Of a DNA stretch of 40,151 bases, positions 4,135 to 23,123 are shown in pieces. The notes beneath the pieces are model-generated. The model saw only the letters and a program-made list of their open reading frames with translations, was not told the origin of the DNA and did no database searches. The stretch's first letter is position 1. Each line of letters starts with the position of its first letter. The position numbers and the translations under genes are program-made. Source of the stretch: Thermoanaerobaculum aquaticum. GTDB lineage: Bacteria; Acidobacteriota; UBA4820. The DNA lies in the NCBI GenBank assembly GCA_020722885.1, contig DYJZ01000006.1:1-40151 (forward strand), in the 5' to 3' direction.

Positions 4135-5142
4135 TTGAGAAAGCATTACAAAAAATTGATAAAAACGGTTGAGTCTTTTGGAAAGGCAAAGATTCTTGTT
4201 CTGGGAGACCTTGTTCTTGACAGATTCTGGTTTGGAACGGTCCAGAGAATATCAAGGGAAGCTCCGGTTCCTATTGTAAAACTTGCCAAAAGTAGCATCG
4301 CTCCTGGATGTGGAGCCAACTGTGCCTCAAATCTTGCCTCGCTGGGGGCAAAAGTGGTTATTTTCGGTGTCATTGGAAAAGACTCTGAAGGAGATAGCTT
4401 AATAAAACTTCTGAAAAAATTGGGTGCAGAAACCAGATTTGTTCTTCAGGAAAAGAATTTTTTTACGCCAACCAAGACAAGGATTCTTGCTGGAAGTCTT
4501 CATGGACCAAAACAACAGCTCGTAAGGGTTGACTCGGGGGAGGAATCTGTTTTTGAGCAAAGAATATATTTAAAGGCTGAGAAAATTCTCAAGAAAGTTA
4601 TTGTAAATGTGTCTTGTGCGATCATTTCTGACTACGGATACGGGCTTTTTAAAAATAAAAAAATTTTTGAAATTTCCAAAATGGCAGGAATTACTGGTGT
4701 AGATTCAAGATTTTCTCTACTCGATTTTAAAGGTGCAACCACCGCTACCCCAAATGAAGAGGAATTTGAAAAAGCCATAAAGAAACCACTTCCTGAAAAT
4801 TTAAGCGAATTTGAAAAAGAGGGGGAGAGGTTAAGAGCACAACTTGAACTTGATGCTCTTCTCGTCACAAGGGGAAGCAAGGGTATGGCACTTTTTGAAA
4901 AAGGAAAAAAAGCAGTTCATATTGATATAGTGGGGAAGGATGAAGTGGTAGATGTTACTGGAGCAGGAGATACCGTTATGGCAACCTACATACTTTCTCT
5001 ATCCACCGGAGCTGACTTTGTTGAAGCTGCAAATATTGCCAATGTGGCGGGAGGAATAGTGGTCCAAAAACCTGGAACTGCTACAGTTTCGCAGAAAGAA
5101 CTTATAAGCCAGCTTGATAAATGGGGCAGAAACCTTTTATGA
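4135..5142 (+). CDS. rfaE1: D-glycero-beta-D-manno-heptose-7-phosphate kinase
   Basis: PfkB-family kinase: ILVLGDLVLDRFWFGTVQRISREAPVPIV and DVTGAGDTVMATY. Confidence 0.93.
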   Translation: MRKHYKKLIKTVESFGKAKILVLGDLVLDRFWFGTVQRISREAPVPIVKLAKSSIAPGCGANCASNLASLGAKVVIFGVIGKDSEGDSLIKLLKKLGAETRFVLQEKNFFTPTKTRILAGSLHGPKQQLVRVDSGEESVFEQRIYLKAEKILKKVIVNVSCAIISDYGYGLFKNKKIFEISKMAGITGVDSRFSLLDFKGATTATPNEEEFEKAIKKPLPENLSEFEKEGERLRAQLELDALLVTRGSKGMALFEKGKKAVHIDIVGKDEVVDVTGAGDTVMATYILSLSTGADFVEAANIANVAGGIVVQKPGTATVSQKELISQLDKWGRNLL

Positions 5143-5621
5143 GAAATTTTGAAGAGAAGTTAATAAAAAGAAAACAGCTTCAAGCAAAACTTAGCCGGAA
5201 GGCAAGAGGCGATAAAAAACTTGTATTAGCTAATGGATGTTTTGATATTCTTCATATAGGTCATATAAGATATCTCAAAGAGGCAAAAAGTTTTGGGGAT
5301 ATTCTTCTTGTGGCTGTAAACTCCGATTCGTCGGTGAAGAAATTGAAGGGGGAAAATAGGCCCGTGGTTGCAGAGATAGAAAGGGCAGGAATAATTGCCG
5401 CATTAAGATATGTTGATTTTGTTGTAATTTTTAATGAAGATGATGTTTGTTCTATAATAAGAGAGACACAGCCGGACATACATTGTAAAGGGGGCGATTA
5501 CAATGAAGAGAATGTTCCGGAAAGGGAAGAAGTTATAAAGAATGGAGGAATCGTGAAAATAGCAGGAGGAGAAAAATTAAGGTCAAGTTCGGATTTGATA
5601 AAAAAGACAATCAGTCAATAG
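5139..5621 (+). CDS. rfaE2: D-glycero-beta-D-manno-heptose 1-phosphate adenylyltransferase
   Basis: NGCFDILHIGHIRYLKEAKSFGDILLVAVNSDSSVKKLKGENRPVV; ATGA overlap with rfaE1. Confidence 0.93.
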   Translation: MRNFEEKLIKRKQLQAKLSRKARGDKKLVLANGCFDILHIGHIRYLKEAKSFGDILLVAVNSDSSVKKLKGENRPVVAEIERAGIIAALRYVDFVVIFNEDDVCSIIRETQPDIHCKGGDYNEENVPEREEVIKNGGIVKIAGGEKLRSSSDLIKKTISQ

Positions 5622-5790
5622 AGATAGCCCCTGTGGGACAGTTTTCGACGCACATAAAGCATTCTGTACAATTTTCCGGCTGTGCCACAACCACTCTCCC
5701 TTTTTCTACTATAAACACATCTTCAGGGCATATATCAAAACAAAGTTGGTTGTTTTCGCATAAAACAGGGTTAATTTTTACATCAGCCAT
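5611..5790 (-). CDS. Small 4Fe-4S ferredoxin (59 aa), absent from the supplied ORF track
   Basis: Translation MADVKINPVLCENNQLCFDICPEDVFIVEKGRVVVAQPENCTECFMCVENCPTGAISID; CxxCxxCxxxCP motif; GGAGG RBS upstream. Confidence 0.93.
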   Translation of the reverse strand: MADVKINPVLCENNQLCFDICPEDVFIVEKGRVVVAQPENCTECFMCVENCPTGAISID

Positions 5791-5877
5791 ATATTTCCTC
5801 CAGAGGTTAAATGTAAACCAAAAAAATAGATTTGTAAAGTGAAAGTTTAGACTTTTTAATTATAGGGGTGAAAACAC

Positions 5878-5904
5878 TTGACTTTTTCATATCAAAGATA
5901 TAAA
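5878..5904 (+). promoter_or_regulatory. Possible promoter for the LysM gene
   Basis: TTGACT - 15 nt - TATAAA. Confidence 0.35.
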
Positions 5905-5946
5905 CTAAAAAATGGAATGGAATTTGAATTGAGAGGGGATAAAGCC

Positions 5947-18303: not shown

Positions 18304-19284
18304 TTATCTATTCTGGCACTCTTGAATTGGGCACTGCAAAAGAATTGAAAGAAAACGGTCAACACCTAAAGCTATACCTGAGCTTTGTGGCATCTCTTCT
18401 ACCGCTTCAAAAAAAAGAAGGTCTTCAGGGTGAGGTGGTTTTCCCATTTTCTTTCTCTCTTCTTGAAAATGTAAATATCTTTTAAAATTTGCTTCCCTGG
18501 TCGTTAGTTCATTGTAAGCATTTGCAATTTCAATTCCTGCGACAAATAGTTCAAACCTGTCTGATAACCCGTCTTTTCTTACTTCTGCAAGTGCGCACTG
18601 AAATTGAGGGTAACCTTTTAGAATTACTGGTTTATCAAATCCTTTTAGCTTTTTTTCAATAATTGAAACTGAAATAAAAGAAAAACAATCGTTCCCTGTC
18701 CAATTAGAGTTGACTTCTGCCCCGAGTGATTTTGCAAGCCTCTGCCATTTTTCATCTGTATCGAGCTCAAATAGTGAGTAGCCGGTTACTTCTTTTAGGA
18801 AATCGCTAAGTTCGAAAACATAAATACCATTTCCCAGTGCAATTTTCTTTTTTTCATTAATTAAAATTGGTTCAAATTCAAAGCTGTTTTCAATTTCTCT
18901 CAAAAGTTCCTCACAATCTTTAACAATTTGGACAAGAGAGGATTCACTTCTGTACCATTCGAGCATAAGAAATTGATGAGAATGGCTGAAAGACTCCATT
19001 TCATCTCTGAAGGATGGAGACAGGGAAAAGACTCTATTTACTTGAGCAGCGAGAATTTTCTTTAGATAAAATTCAGGAGAGGTAGGAAGAAAATATCTTC
19101 TTTTACTCACGCTCCCCTCTGCTATAAAGGGGTCAAGGTGCGGTTCCATTCCTGCTGTGGGAACTAAAATCGGTGCGTCAACTTCAAGAAAGTCTCTCTC
19201 AAAGAAAAATTTTCTTATGATTCTTAAAAATAGGTCTCTCTTTTTTAAGTTTTCTATTTTCTCTTTAAGTTTATTTGACTTCAT
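18304..19284 (-). CDS. epmA: Elongation factor P--(R)-beta-lysine ligase (EpmA/PoxA/GenX, short class II LysRS-like)
   Basis: FFFERDFLEVDAPILVPTAGMEPHLDPF, LPTSPEFYLKKIL, SFRDEMESFSHSHQFLMLEWYR, GIALGVDRFLSILL; no N-terminal OB-fold. Confidence 0.9.
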   Translation of the reverse strand: MKSNKLKEKIENLKKRDLFLRIIRKFFFERDFLEVDAPILVPTAGMEPHLDPFIAEGSVSKRRYFLPTSPEFYLKKILAAQVNRVFSLSPSFRDEMESFSHSHQFLMLEWYRSESSLVQIVKDCEELLREIENSFEFEPILINEKKKIALGNGIYVFELSDFLKEVTGYSLFELDTDEKWQRLAKSLGAEVNSNWTGNDCFSFISVSIIEKKLKGFDKPVILKGYPQFQCALAEVRKDGLSDRFELFVAGIEIANAYNELTTREANFKRYLHFQEERKKMGKPPHPEDLLFFEAVEEMPQSSGIALGVDRFLSILLQCPIQECQNR

Positions 19285-19287
19285 ATA

Positions 19288-19890
19288 TTAGATTGAAAAA
19301 CTTTTCAGCGTTGTCCCAAAAATAAGTTCTCTGTATTCATTTTCCCTATTTTCAAAAGGAATTAGAGCAATACAATATTCTTTCAAAAAGAAATTAGCTT
19401 CAACACCTGTTACATCAGCTGCTCTGTCAAGGTAAGAAAGATAGTAGAGTTTAGCAACCTTTTCGAGATTTTCTGGATTAACAATCACATCTACAATTTT
19501 TGCCTCTACTAAAGAATGTTCTTCTTCGAACTGCTGGCTTTCAAGGGAATATTTCAGGGTTAAATCCTCCGAGTATAAGCTTCTTAAATTTATAAAGGCG
19601 GGATAAAAAATTGCATTTAGAGGTTTCAGTTTTGAGTAGGCATTCATTTTTTTGCTGTCATCTGAATTTACACTTAAAGTGCCTTCTATCCTGTAAAAGG
19701 GAAAGTAAATCAATTCTCCATTCAATTTAAATTTTTTCTTATAAACTTTGACTCTAACTGTTTCAGGGTAACTATCCATAATATAGGCTATTTTACATGA
19801 AAAGCAAAAGAAAATTTTGGAGTTATTTCCTCCATTCAATTCCTTACCGCAGTTTTTGCATTCAAGAGGAGCAAAAAGAGATTCCTTCAT
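19288..19890 (-). CDS. Uncharacterised zinc-ribbon protein A
   Basis: CKNCGKEL..FFCFSCK zinc ribbon followed by KKKFKLNGELIYFPFYRIEG; 4-nt overlap with the next gene. Confidence 0.7.
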   Translation of the reverse strand: MKESLFAPLECKNCGKELNGGNNSKIFFCFSCKIAYIMDSYPETVRVKVYKKKFKLNGELIYFPFYRIEGTLSVNSDDSKKMNAYSKLKPLNAIFYPAFINLRSLYSEDLTLKYSLESQQFEEEHSLVEAKIVDVIVNPENLEKVAKLYYLSYLDRAADVTGVEANFFLKEYCIALIPFENRENEYRELIFGTTLKSFSI

Positions 19891-21023
19891 TGTCTTTTTC
19901 CTTTTAACGCCTTTTCAAAGCCTTTTTCAAGAGTTGCAAAAATAAAATCAAGATAGGGTGACAAAAAAGATTTAGACGGGTCTGCCAATTTGCTGATGAA
20001 CAATCCATCTGGAGTTACTTTTGCGCCAAAGGGTGTCTTTAAAAGAAGATAGGCAATATTCAGCCCTCCTCCAAAAACAATGGAAACGAAAAAGAATATT
20101 ATAGTTCCAATGTACATTGAGGTTGGAAAATCTTTCTGGATTTCTTTGAAAGTGAAAGGTATGGCAAGGAAAGAGATGAATTGTCCAAAGAAAAATCCAA
20201 GAAAAGATGACAGTAAAAGTGAAGCAAAAACAGCGAGGTTTCTCCTGCAGGGCAGAACGCCAGAGATAAATTCACCATTGATGCAATCGAAGATCAATTT
20301 AAAATATGACCCGCGGAAACTGAAGAGAAGTTCTTCTAAGGGATAGTATATTATTGCAAGGTTCATTTCTAGAATTTCAAGAGAATCTTTCCCTCCCTTT
20401 GCTGATTTTATCCCATTTTCAATAATATTTTCCCTCGGAATGTTTGGACTTATAACTTCTCCAATTTTGTAAAGTTCAGAAGTATCAACCGCCTTCAAGT
20501 TGTTTATATTAGTTACAATAGACTTTCTTAAACTTTCTTGAGAAATCTCAGACTCAGAAAAAGTAGATGCTTCATAAAGATACCTGAAATCGCTCAGTAC
20601 CACTCTACTGTCTTCTTCGACAATTATCTCAGGCTTATTCCTAATATAACCAATTGAGAAGGAGTCCTGCGAATCTAAATTTATTTTTAATAAATTAGGG
20701 GCAACAATTCTTTCCTTTCCTGTTTCCATTACACCACCCCTTTTGCCAGTTAAGAGATAAAATGGAACAAACACTTTTTTTCTCGAAGTAAGGATAGATC
20801 CTTTTCTAACAAGTGGATTGACCAGCTTCGAAGCAAAAAGTTTTTCTGTTATTCTTTTTAAATCAAAATTCTTGTTTTCTTCCATTACAAATCGGGGAAT
20901 GTAGTTTTCAGGCTTGAAATAGAGACTCTTATTACAGTAGAGACACTTGACTTTTCTCATTCCGAGTGGTGGGGAGAGAGTACCTCCACAATAGGGGCAG
21001 TTGAGGTTTTCATAAAACATCAA
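19887..21023 (-). CDS. Uncharacterised zinc-ribbon membrane protein B
   Basis: CPYCGGTL..KCLYCNKSLYFK ribbon, RKKVFVPFYLLTGKRGG, two predicted TM segments. Confidence 0.72.
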   Translation of the reverse strand: MMFYENLNCPYCGGTLSPPLGMRKVKCLYCNKSLYFKPENYIPRFVMEENKNFDLKRITEKLFASKLVNPLVRKGSILTSRKKVFVPFYLLTGKRGGVMETGKERIVAPNLLKINLDSQDSFSIGYIRNKPEIIVEEDSRVVLSDFRYLYEASTFSESEISQESLRKSIVTNINNLKAVDTSELYKIGEVISPNIPRENIIENGIKSAKGGKDSLEILEMNLAIIYYPLEELLFSFRGSYFKLIFDCINGEFISGVLPCRRNLAVFASLLLSSFLGFFFGQFISFLAIPFTFKEIQKDFPTSMYIGTIIFFFVSIVFGGGLNIAYLLLKTPFGAKVTPDGLFISKLADPSKSFLSPYLDFIFATLEKGFEKALKGKRQ

Positions 21024-21733
21024 TCAAGTTTCCTCATTATAGATTCTGTAATAAAATACGAAGCAGTCAGAGAAATTGCAAGCGTAAGAAAAAAAGAAAA
21101 AAGAGGAGGTTTCAGGAAATAGGATATGGTTGCAAAAAAGAAAAAGTAGACGAATAAGAAAGAAACAACTTTATTTACCTGATTTTTTGATATCGATTCT
21201 GGAATTTTTTCAAAGTATATTTTTCCGGCAGTTGCTTCAATAAAAAATTTTGTTTTAATTGTTGTGGATTCAGATTCATAAATGTAAAAAGGTAGCTGGT
21301 AGATAGATAAACTTTCTTTGTTTTCCCTTTGTGCAAGTAGCAGAGTCTCATCGTCAGGTTTTATAAGATCACCCCATTCTTTCACATTTTCAGTATAGAA
21401 AAGGGGAGAAGAGGAGGGAATTTGCAAAGATGAAAGAAATGAAGGATGGGGGCTAAAAAGGGGATATACTTTTAAAGATTCTCCCTTTCTTCCAAAGGGA
21501 AGAAAAATTTTCTTTTGCAATTTAAATTTTGTCTTGTCAAGACCTAACATTCTAAGGGTTTCAATCAGGATTAAAGCAGCTCTTTTTTCTGTGATTATAG
21601 GGGAAAAATAGTAATATTTTAGCGCAGAATAATATTTTAAATACAAAGAAGAGGAACAGTATTCGCACTCAATGAAATCTGTTTCTCTTTCAAGAACGAT
21701 AGAATTTCCACAGTTAGAGCAAATGACTTTCAA
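21020..21733 (-). CDS. Uncharacterised zinc-ribbon membrane protein C
   Basis: CSNCGNSI..ECEYCSSSLYLKYY ribbon, QKKIFLPFGRKGESL, two C-terminal TM segments; 4-nt overlap with the next gene. Confidence 0.72.
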   Translation of the reverse strand: MKVICSNCGNSIVLERETDFIECEYCSSSLYLKYYSALKYYYFSPIITEKRAALILIETLRMLGLDKTKFKLQKKIFLPFGRKGESLKVYPLFSPHPSFLSSLQIPSSSPLFYTENVKEWGDLIKPDDETLLLAQRENKESLSIYQLPFYIYESESTTIKTKFFIEATAGKIYFEKIPESISKNQVNKVVSFLFVYFFFFATISYFLKPPLFSFFLTLAISLTASYFITESIMRKLD

Positions 21734-21749
21734 AGACTCCCCACTTTAA

Positions 21750-23123
21750 TTACTCTGTCCATAAAGTTTTCTTGTAATACACGGGCTCTTGAGGGAGAGG
21801 GCCAAAGCGGAATTCCTTTTCCAGAGATGAAACGAAAGTTCCCCATTTCCCGCATTTCTGGCAAAAATCCTTCCAGAATGACTCTTCTTTTCCACAATGG
21901 TTGCAGAAAAAAACAAACTCTTCAGGTTTTAACATTCGCCACATTTCATTGTAGTAAGAGCAAGCCTTAAGATACTCCTGACGTCTTTCATTAATTTTTG
22001 CGAGGTGGTATTCAAGCGATGGGGTGGGAGAATACTGAGATTCAATTTCACTGAAAATTTGTTCAGCCCGTTGATAAAAACCCTGTCTGGACAATAGTCT
22101 TGCAAGAAGAAATTTGGGAAGAACAGGATTCCTGGCTTCCGCTATTATTTCTTCATATTCTTTTATGCAAAGATCAGGTTCTCCTTTTTCGAGAAGTAGC
22201 TTCTCTAAAAATAACAATGGGACCATTGAATCGCAGTTGAGAAAGCCTTCCCTGTAATTAGCAAGCGCCCCACTTTCGTCGCCAGAAAGAAGAAGAGCTT
22301 CAGCAAGTCTAAGATATACCGGAAGAAAATGGGGGAAATTTCTTTTTAATGAATTGAGTCCCAAAATTGCTTCGTCAATTTTATTTTGAGAGAGGAGGTA
22401 GGAGTAGATTTCATAATCTATTGAGACGGTATATAGTTCGTCCTCTTTTATCTCTTCTTCCAAAACGGATGCCCTGAGAATCTTCTCCTGTATCTCCTTT
22501 GCCTTATACCAGTTTGTTTCCTTAATGTACAAATTTCTTAAAAGCCTGAGAGCATAAAGTGCTCTTTTGGGCTGGATGGAAATTATCTCTTCAAGCCATC
22601 TCTTTGCCTCGTCAAAATTTCCTTTTTTAAGATAGTCTTCTGCCATTGCGTAAAGAGCCTGAAGATGTTTGGGATTTTCATTTAGCGCTTTTTTGTGCCA
22701 TACAATAGCCTCTTCAATCTTTCCGATGTCCCTTAAAGCATCGCCTATTTTAATGAGGGCGGGAAGTGAATGTGGATTGAGTGCTATTGCTTCCTTAAAA
22801 TGCTTTATTGCTTCAAAGGGTCTTGCGCCAAGAATGGCATCCATTCCTTTAAGATACCTTGTTTCAGATTCTTTATTTGCTCGTTCCCTGAACTTAAGAA
22901 ACCAGGAGGATAGAAACCTGTTTACTCCAAGCCCGACTGCTATTACAATAAATGAAATGAAGCCAAAAAGGAGAGAGAAAATAAGAGCAGTTGAGAGTTT
23001 GAAAGGTATCCCGAAAGCAAAAAAATCGCTCTCAAGAATCTCAAGGTTTTCTTCAGCAGCGCGCACTATTACTATGACAATAATAATTAGAAGAGCGTAA
23101 CTTAGCGCCGTTTTTAGGCGCAT
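21750..23123 (-). CDS. LapA-LapB-like fusion: N-terminal membrane domain, TPR repeats, C-terminal zinc ribbon
   Basis: Two N-terminal TM with FKLSTALIFSLLFGFISFIVIAVGLGVN (DUF1049/LapA-like); TPRs; FFCNHCGKEESFWKDFCQKCGKWGTF resembles the LapB/YciM rubredoxin-type ribbon. Confidence 0.78.
   Translation of the reverse strand: MRLKTALSYALLIIIVIVIVRAAEENLEILESDFFAFGIPFKLSTALIFSLLFGFISFIVIAVGLGVNRFLSSWFLKFRERANKESETRYLKGMDAILGARPFEAIKHFKEAIALNPHSLPALIKIGDALRDIGKIEEAIVWHKKALNENPKHLQALYAMAEDYLKKGNFDEAKRWLEEIISIQPKRALYALRLLRNLYIKETNWYKAKEIQEKILRASVLEEEIKEDELYTVSIDYEIYSYLLSQNKIDEAILGLNSLKRNFPHFLPVYLRLAEALLLSGDESGALANYREGFLNCDSMVPLLFLEKLLLEKGEPDLCIKEYEEIIAEARNPVLPKFLLARLLSRQGFYQRAEQIFSEIESQYSPTPSLEYHLAKINERRQEYLKACSYYNEMWRMLKPEEFVFFCNHCGKEESFWKDFCQKCGKWGTFVSSLEKEFRFGPLPQEPVYYKKTLWTE

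Follow-up and report, generated by a model that had tools for sequence, protein, structure and literature searches.

A conserved cassette of three zinc-ribbon genes in Acidobacteriota and its relationship to YdjG-like partners of SPFH proteins

Three overlapping zinc-ribbon genes

The window, a 40,151 nt stretch of contig DYJZ01000006.1 from a member of the Acidobacteriota, contains three consecutive genes on the minus strand, termed C, B and A in order of transcription, each encoding a protein with an N-terminal zinc ribbon. All three are genuine genes with the boundaries originally assigned to them in a preliminary description of the locus, which had also reported a 4 nt overlap at both junctions. 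This holds for B and A, which share the tetranucleotide ATGA, and for C and B when B is read from the TTG start at 21023, but not when it is read from the adjacent ATG, which leaves an overlap of 1 nt.

Gene C (21020-21733, on the minus strand like all features of the trio) encodes 237 amino acids, comprising a zinc ribbon, a PF-strand domain, a second PF strand similar to that of YdjG-like proteins and a hairpin of two transmembrane (TM) segments. The ribbon (21656-21721) is formed by cysteines C5, C8, C23 and C26, which are invariant in 11 orthologues. The first strand motif, FLPFGRKGES, is found at 21476-21505, and the second motif region, IYQLPFYIYES...FIEATAGKIYFEKIP (21200-21304), is the counterpart of the sequence LPVWLVTY..NGQTGKV.G..P in YdjG-like proteins. 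The two hydrophobic segments lie at 21047-21178 (residues 186-229).

Gene B (19887-21023; 378 amino acids, or 377 from the ATG at 21020) encodes a zinc ribbon, a YdjG-like beta domain, a two-TM hairpin and a cytosolic tail. Its ribbon (20934-20999) contains cysteines C9, C12, C27 and C30, invariant in 13 orthologues, and is followed by the first motif, FVPFYLLTGKRGG (20733-20771), and by a second motif region at 20247-20378, IIYYPLEELLFSFRGSYFKLIFDCINGEFISGVLP, corresponding to the predicted strands of residues 216-259. The two hydrophobic segments (20037-20240; residues 262-329) are predicted to be helical. In a structure model with a mean pLDDT of 76, the elements are arranged in the order ribbon, long PF strand, helices and a further long PF strand.

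Gene A (19288-19890) encodes the shortest protein, 200 amino acids in length, consisting of a zinc ribbon (19795-19860; cysteines C11, C14, C29 and C32, invariant in 13 orthologues) and three PF- or PA-strand motifs. The model of A is confident (mean pLDDT 86, pTM 0.83), and again places a ribbon before a long PF strand, helices and a second long PF strand, an arrangement resembling that predicted for B. Hydrophobic segments are found in none of the A orthologues in the window's order, whereas two are present in most orthologues of both B and C, as had been proposed for the latter pair. The preliminary description was likewise correct in stating that A is without a TM part; however, as this is true of A in nearly all families, the absence does not represent a recent loss. 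The suggested common layout, an N-terminal CxxC..CxxC ribbon followed by a K.K.F.PF strand motif, is also borne out by the orthologues of A, B and C, across which the ribbon cysteines are invariant and the P(F/Y) of the motif is invariant or nearly so.

None of the three proteins matched a Pfam, NCBIfam or PADLOC family above its curated cut-off, with ribbon matches occurring at chance level, in agreement with the original impression that they belong to no known family. Comparison of the B and A models with the PDB using Foldseek retrieved nothing with E < 0.7, and a sequence profile search of the PDB identified just the ribbons of RNA polymerase and ribosomal proteins, at E values of 0.0075 or worse. 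A search of the open-licence literature on SPFH proteins and zinc ribbons found no paper describing the three-gene form. A role in transcription, as might be suggested by the label 'TFIIB-type ribbon', was rejected in view of the membrane anchors and the lack of any other DNA-binding part; a role in defence was similarly set aside, there being no PADLOC match and no defence genes seen in the vicinity.

Conservation and genomic context of the cassette

A search of 40 relatives detected gene B in the window genome, in 11 of the 12 other members of its order (Ca. Aminicenantes) and, as one distant match outside the order, in G027. Throughout the order, both the gene order C-B-A and the tight spacing are retained wherever the contig extends far enough; in one genome (G009), A alone is visible, at the start of a contig. 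Profile searches, which encompassed 297 genomes of the phylum Acidobacteriota and, elsewhere, plasmid records, found C-B-A in eight further acidobacterial families (f4, f11, f17, f27, f34, f40, f44 and f71), including one genome, G129 of f27, in which the cassette is divided between two contigs. In another family (f25), C and B are found beside a contig end. The three genes are therefore neighbours in many genomes besides that in which they were first noticed.

By contrast, the genes surrounding the trio are mostly unrelated from one family to the next. Those flanking it in the window's family are a TPR gene, dksA and epmA, with the TPR gene preceding C-B-A and the epmA-like gene following it, on the minus strand in the window; in a sister family, the flanking genes appear, from translations read by eye, to encode an Mpl-like protein, RecG and an acyl-CoA synthetase. 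The constancy of the order C-B-A while all of its surroundings vary indicates that selection keeps the unit together. In all four genomes of the window's family, TPR-C-B-A-epmA run in one direction and are separated by no more than 16 nt. This arrangement is confined to that family, so that a fixed TPR-trio-epmA operon can be rejected and the previously suggested cooperation of the trio with epmA and the LapAB-like TPR protein is not supported.

The LapAB-like protein itself (21750-23123) has N-terminal hydrophobic segments, consistent with membrane anchoring, as well as TPR repeats and, at its C terminus, a CxxC..CxxC tail, and scores 77 bits against LapB models, far below the cut-off of 363. 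The EpmA/GenX-like gene (18304-19284) falls just under the NCBIfam cut-off, with 245.6 bits against 286.9.

Sequence relationships among the trio and with YdjG-like proteins

The proposal that the three genes are diverged duplicates was assessed through comparisons of profiles with and without the zinc ribbon. With ribbons retained, the families of the window's order gave probabilities of 97.6% for B with C, 95.5% for A with B and 85% for A with C, the latter two resting mainly on the ribbon itself. Once ribbons had been masked, the distant families of B and C still aligned with a probability of 98.4% (E = 1e-14, 197 columns), in accordance with the mid-domain previously ascribed to both, and those of the window's order did so with 62% in the region of the second strand; column-shuffled controls for comparable profile pairs gave E values between 0.05 and 1. 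In a tree built from B and C together with canonical YdjG-like proteins, each of the three resolved as one group, with support of 90/87, 97/92 and 100/99, and the separation of B and C into distinct clades implies that they parted before these families did, such that the split is old. On the basis of their profiles and this tree, B and C are ancient paralogues, and to this extent the original proposal stands. It does not extend as readily to A, the ribbon-masked profile of which matched its own distant orthologues at 99.1%, but those of B, C or the YdjG-like proteins at only 5-42% (best 41.6%), with the PF motif alone being aligned. As its sequence has just the ribbon and PFY motif in common with B and C, A is possibly a third paralogue.

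The profile of B also identified single proteins in other Acidobacteriota, for example L085, which consists of a ribbon, the motif LPFWAFDA, LPVWLAAFAYKQKVYRFVVNGQTGKVTGEAP and a TM segment. Relatives of L085, annotated either as zinc-ribbon proteins, with the label 'TFIIB-type', or as hypothetical proteins, are borne by plasmids of Comamonas, Paracoccus, Vibrio, Tsukamurella and Enterococcus. In each annotated plasmid record that was opened, representing Pseudomonadota, Actinomycetota and Bacillota, the gene for the relative was found directly after an SPFH gene; in Enterococcus, it is followed in turn by a TPM-domain gene, giving the same gene content as B. subtilis ydjI, ydjG and ydjH. The product of ydjG has been described as a double zinc-ribbon TM protein, encoded beside band-7 and TPM proteins (PMC11237479).

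Comparison with the profile of these YdjG-like proteins gave a probability of 98.9% for full-length B (E = 1.9e-17, 250 columns) and 96.8% for B with its ribbon masked (E = 2.4e-10, 199 columns). The corresponding values for the distant C family were 99.0% at full length (195 columns) and 95.9% without the ribbon (E = 6e-9). By these profile matches, B and C are members of the YdjG-like superfamily of SPFH-partnering zinc-ribbon membrane proteins, the tie to B. subtilis YdjG itself running through the syntenic relatives and thus resting on synteny and the published description (PMC11237479). This makes the designation of the trio as an 'undescribed system' too strong. An N-terminal C4 zinc ribbon is common to the YdjG-like proteins and all of A, B and C; B and C additionally share with them a beta domain, running from a PFW strand to PVW..NGQTG..P, that is homologous outside the ribbon, and a C-terminal membrane anchor, which A does not have. 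For this beta domain in A, the probability was 28-42%, with the motif alone aligned, although the predicted order of elements is similar. The trio differs in composition, in that a YdjG-like protein is a single polypeptide usually bearing two ribbons and one TM segment, whereas the trio comprises three proteins with one ribbon each, of which B and C have a two-TM hairpin and A is soluble.

Nine trio genomes, from the window's order, f27 and f17, also encode a canonical single-gene YdjG-like protein, so there the trio is an addition and not a simple replacement; none was found beyond the trio in G143, G293, G054, G077 and others. In the window genome, the canonical double-ribbon gene (L098:1799-2911, on contig C31) is separate from both the trio and the SPFH gene, and in several genomes of the order it is co-directional with a gene that, by eye, resembles glycosyltransferase-9 or heptosyltransferase genes. 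At another locus (L082:4820-6571), a YdjG-like ribbon protein carries an extra C-terminal domain of extracellular appearance. Weaker matches in G143 (contig C11, approximately 4825-5910) and G293 (contig C20, approximately 21154) may reflect an additional, diverged ribbon set in these two genomes of f44.

Association with SPFH genes and candidate function

In four genomes from three families (G143, G293, G237 and G129), C is immediately preceded by a Band_7_1 SPFH gene, giving an SPFH-C-B-A array in which the distance from SPFH to C ranges from a 4 nt overlap to around 31 bp, and the adjacent SPFH proteins have C-terminal zinc ribbons. These represent 4 of the 31 trio genomes; SPFH genes do not adjoin the trio in the window's order, the one in the window genome (G000:C44) being situated on another contig. 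The two nevertheless co-occur, strong Band_7_1 matches being present in 28 of the 31 trio genomes, according to a list compiled by hand from the profile-search results, versus 105 of 266 others (Fisher p = 3e-8). Outside the window's order, the figure is 18 of 19 trio genomes (p = 1.5e-6), both p values representing upper limits on the surprise, as the genomes are related and kinship is uncorrected. A trio without a strong Band_7_1 match was found in G021, a single contig estimated to be 95% complete. At a contig end in G199 (L077:7695-8921), one ORF containing two ribbon-PFW units adjoins sequence for the zinc-ribbon tail of an SPFH-like protein.

SPFH proteins organise bacterial membranes; to our knowledge, there are few cases in which their anchoring at the membrane by partner proteins is known. 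One is provided by the pspA-ydjGHI genes of B. subtilis (PMC8581546, PMC11237479), where, as in the Acidobacteriota, an SPFH protein with C-terminal ribbons is accompanied by a ribbon-bearing membrane protein. In cells deleted for ydjG or ydjH, neither YdjI nor PspA is recruited to the membrane; under alkali stress, cells without YdjG or YdjH also show disturbed shape (PMC8581546). The acidobacterial loci differ in that PspA (PF04012) was not found in 18 of 20 trio genomes, namely the window genome (91% complete) and 17 others, precluding full membership of a Psp system. Furthermore, in the loci that were read, neither the trio nor the SPFH gene has a TPM gene next to it; SPFH is instead preceded by a gene for a short coiled-coil protein of the LIMLP_15305 type, as seen in 10 of the 13 SPFH loci read in trio genomes.

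The explanation we favour, with moderate confidence, is that the products of C, B and A assemble with one another, and that together they represent the YdjG-like zinc-ribbon partner of a YdjI-type Band_7_1 SPFH scaffold, here distributed over three proteins. The C-terminal two-helix hairpins of B and C would anchor both in the inner membrane, leaving their ribbons and paired PF-strand beta domains on the cytosolic side, and A would join them as a third, soluble subunit of the same design. By analogy with the action of YdjG and YdjH on YdjI in Bacillus, the trio may dock and organise the SPFH oligomer at the membrane, and together they may participate in membrane upkeep under envelope stress, mostly without PspA. 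A membrane-associated complex of A, B and C is likely, as, by the same analogy, is a role for the trio in care of the envelope. If this is correct, a widely conserved three-subunit partner of YdjG type, mostly operating without PspA, would mean that scaffolds of this type also function outside the Psp response. Three gene families with no public model would also gain a name and a testable role, and the trio would constitute a natural set of paralogues in which to separate the functions of ribbon, beta domain and anchor.

Alternatively, the trio could be a membrane complex independent of SPFH, such as a regulator sensing metals or redox state through its ribbons, to which the SPFH adjacency is secondary. 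The small number of genomes with adjacent genes, the trio of G021 and the location of the order's trio in other operons all accord with such a view, which we consider unlikely given that the adjacency arose in three families with identical order and near-zero gaps, that relatives of B and C in three other phyla also adjoin SPFH genes and, for a regulator, that Pfam and NCBIfam scans detected no DNA-binding domain apart from the ribbon. It is more improbable still that B and C are the sole SPFH partners and A an unrelated soluble ribbon protein, merely co-transcribed and with its own task. Such an arrangement would accord with the lack of a convincing match between the ribbon-masked profile of A and those of B, C or YdjG-like proteins. 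Against it, A follows B in every family whose contig reaches far enough, shares with B and C both the ribbon and the recurring P-F strand motifs, and has a predicted order of elements resembling that of B. Equally doubtful is control of LPS assembly by the trio and the LapAB-like TPR protein, which, while likewise membrane-anchored with a CxxC..CxxC tail and closely linked to the trio in all four genomes of the window's family, is of the LapB/YciM type, is unrelated in sequence to A, B or C, and is encoded beside them in no other family, their neighbours there being the Mpl-like, RecG, acyl-CoA synthetase and other genes.

The favoured reading of the trio as a multi-subunit SPFH partner can be extended, more tentatively, to the LIMLP_15305-like protein, which, given the absence of PspA, may act as its functional stand-in. 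C, B and A might then come together as a hetero-oligomeric collar at the membrane, one of the three subunits being soluble, and constitute, with the Band_7_1 SPFH and LIMLP_15305-like proteins, a PspA-free machine for envelope maintenance particular to the Acidobacteriota. On contig C44 of the window genome, the LIMLP_15305-like gene (L112:2354-2845) is found directly before the SPFH gene (L112:2849-3970).
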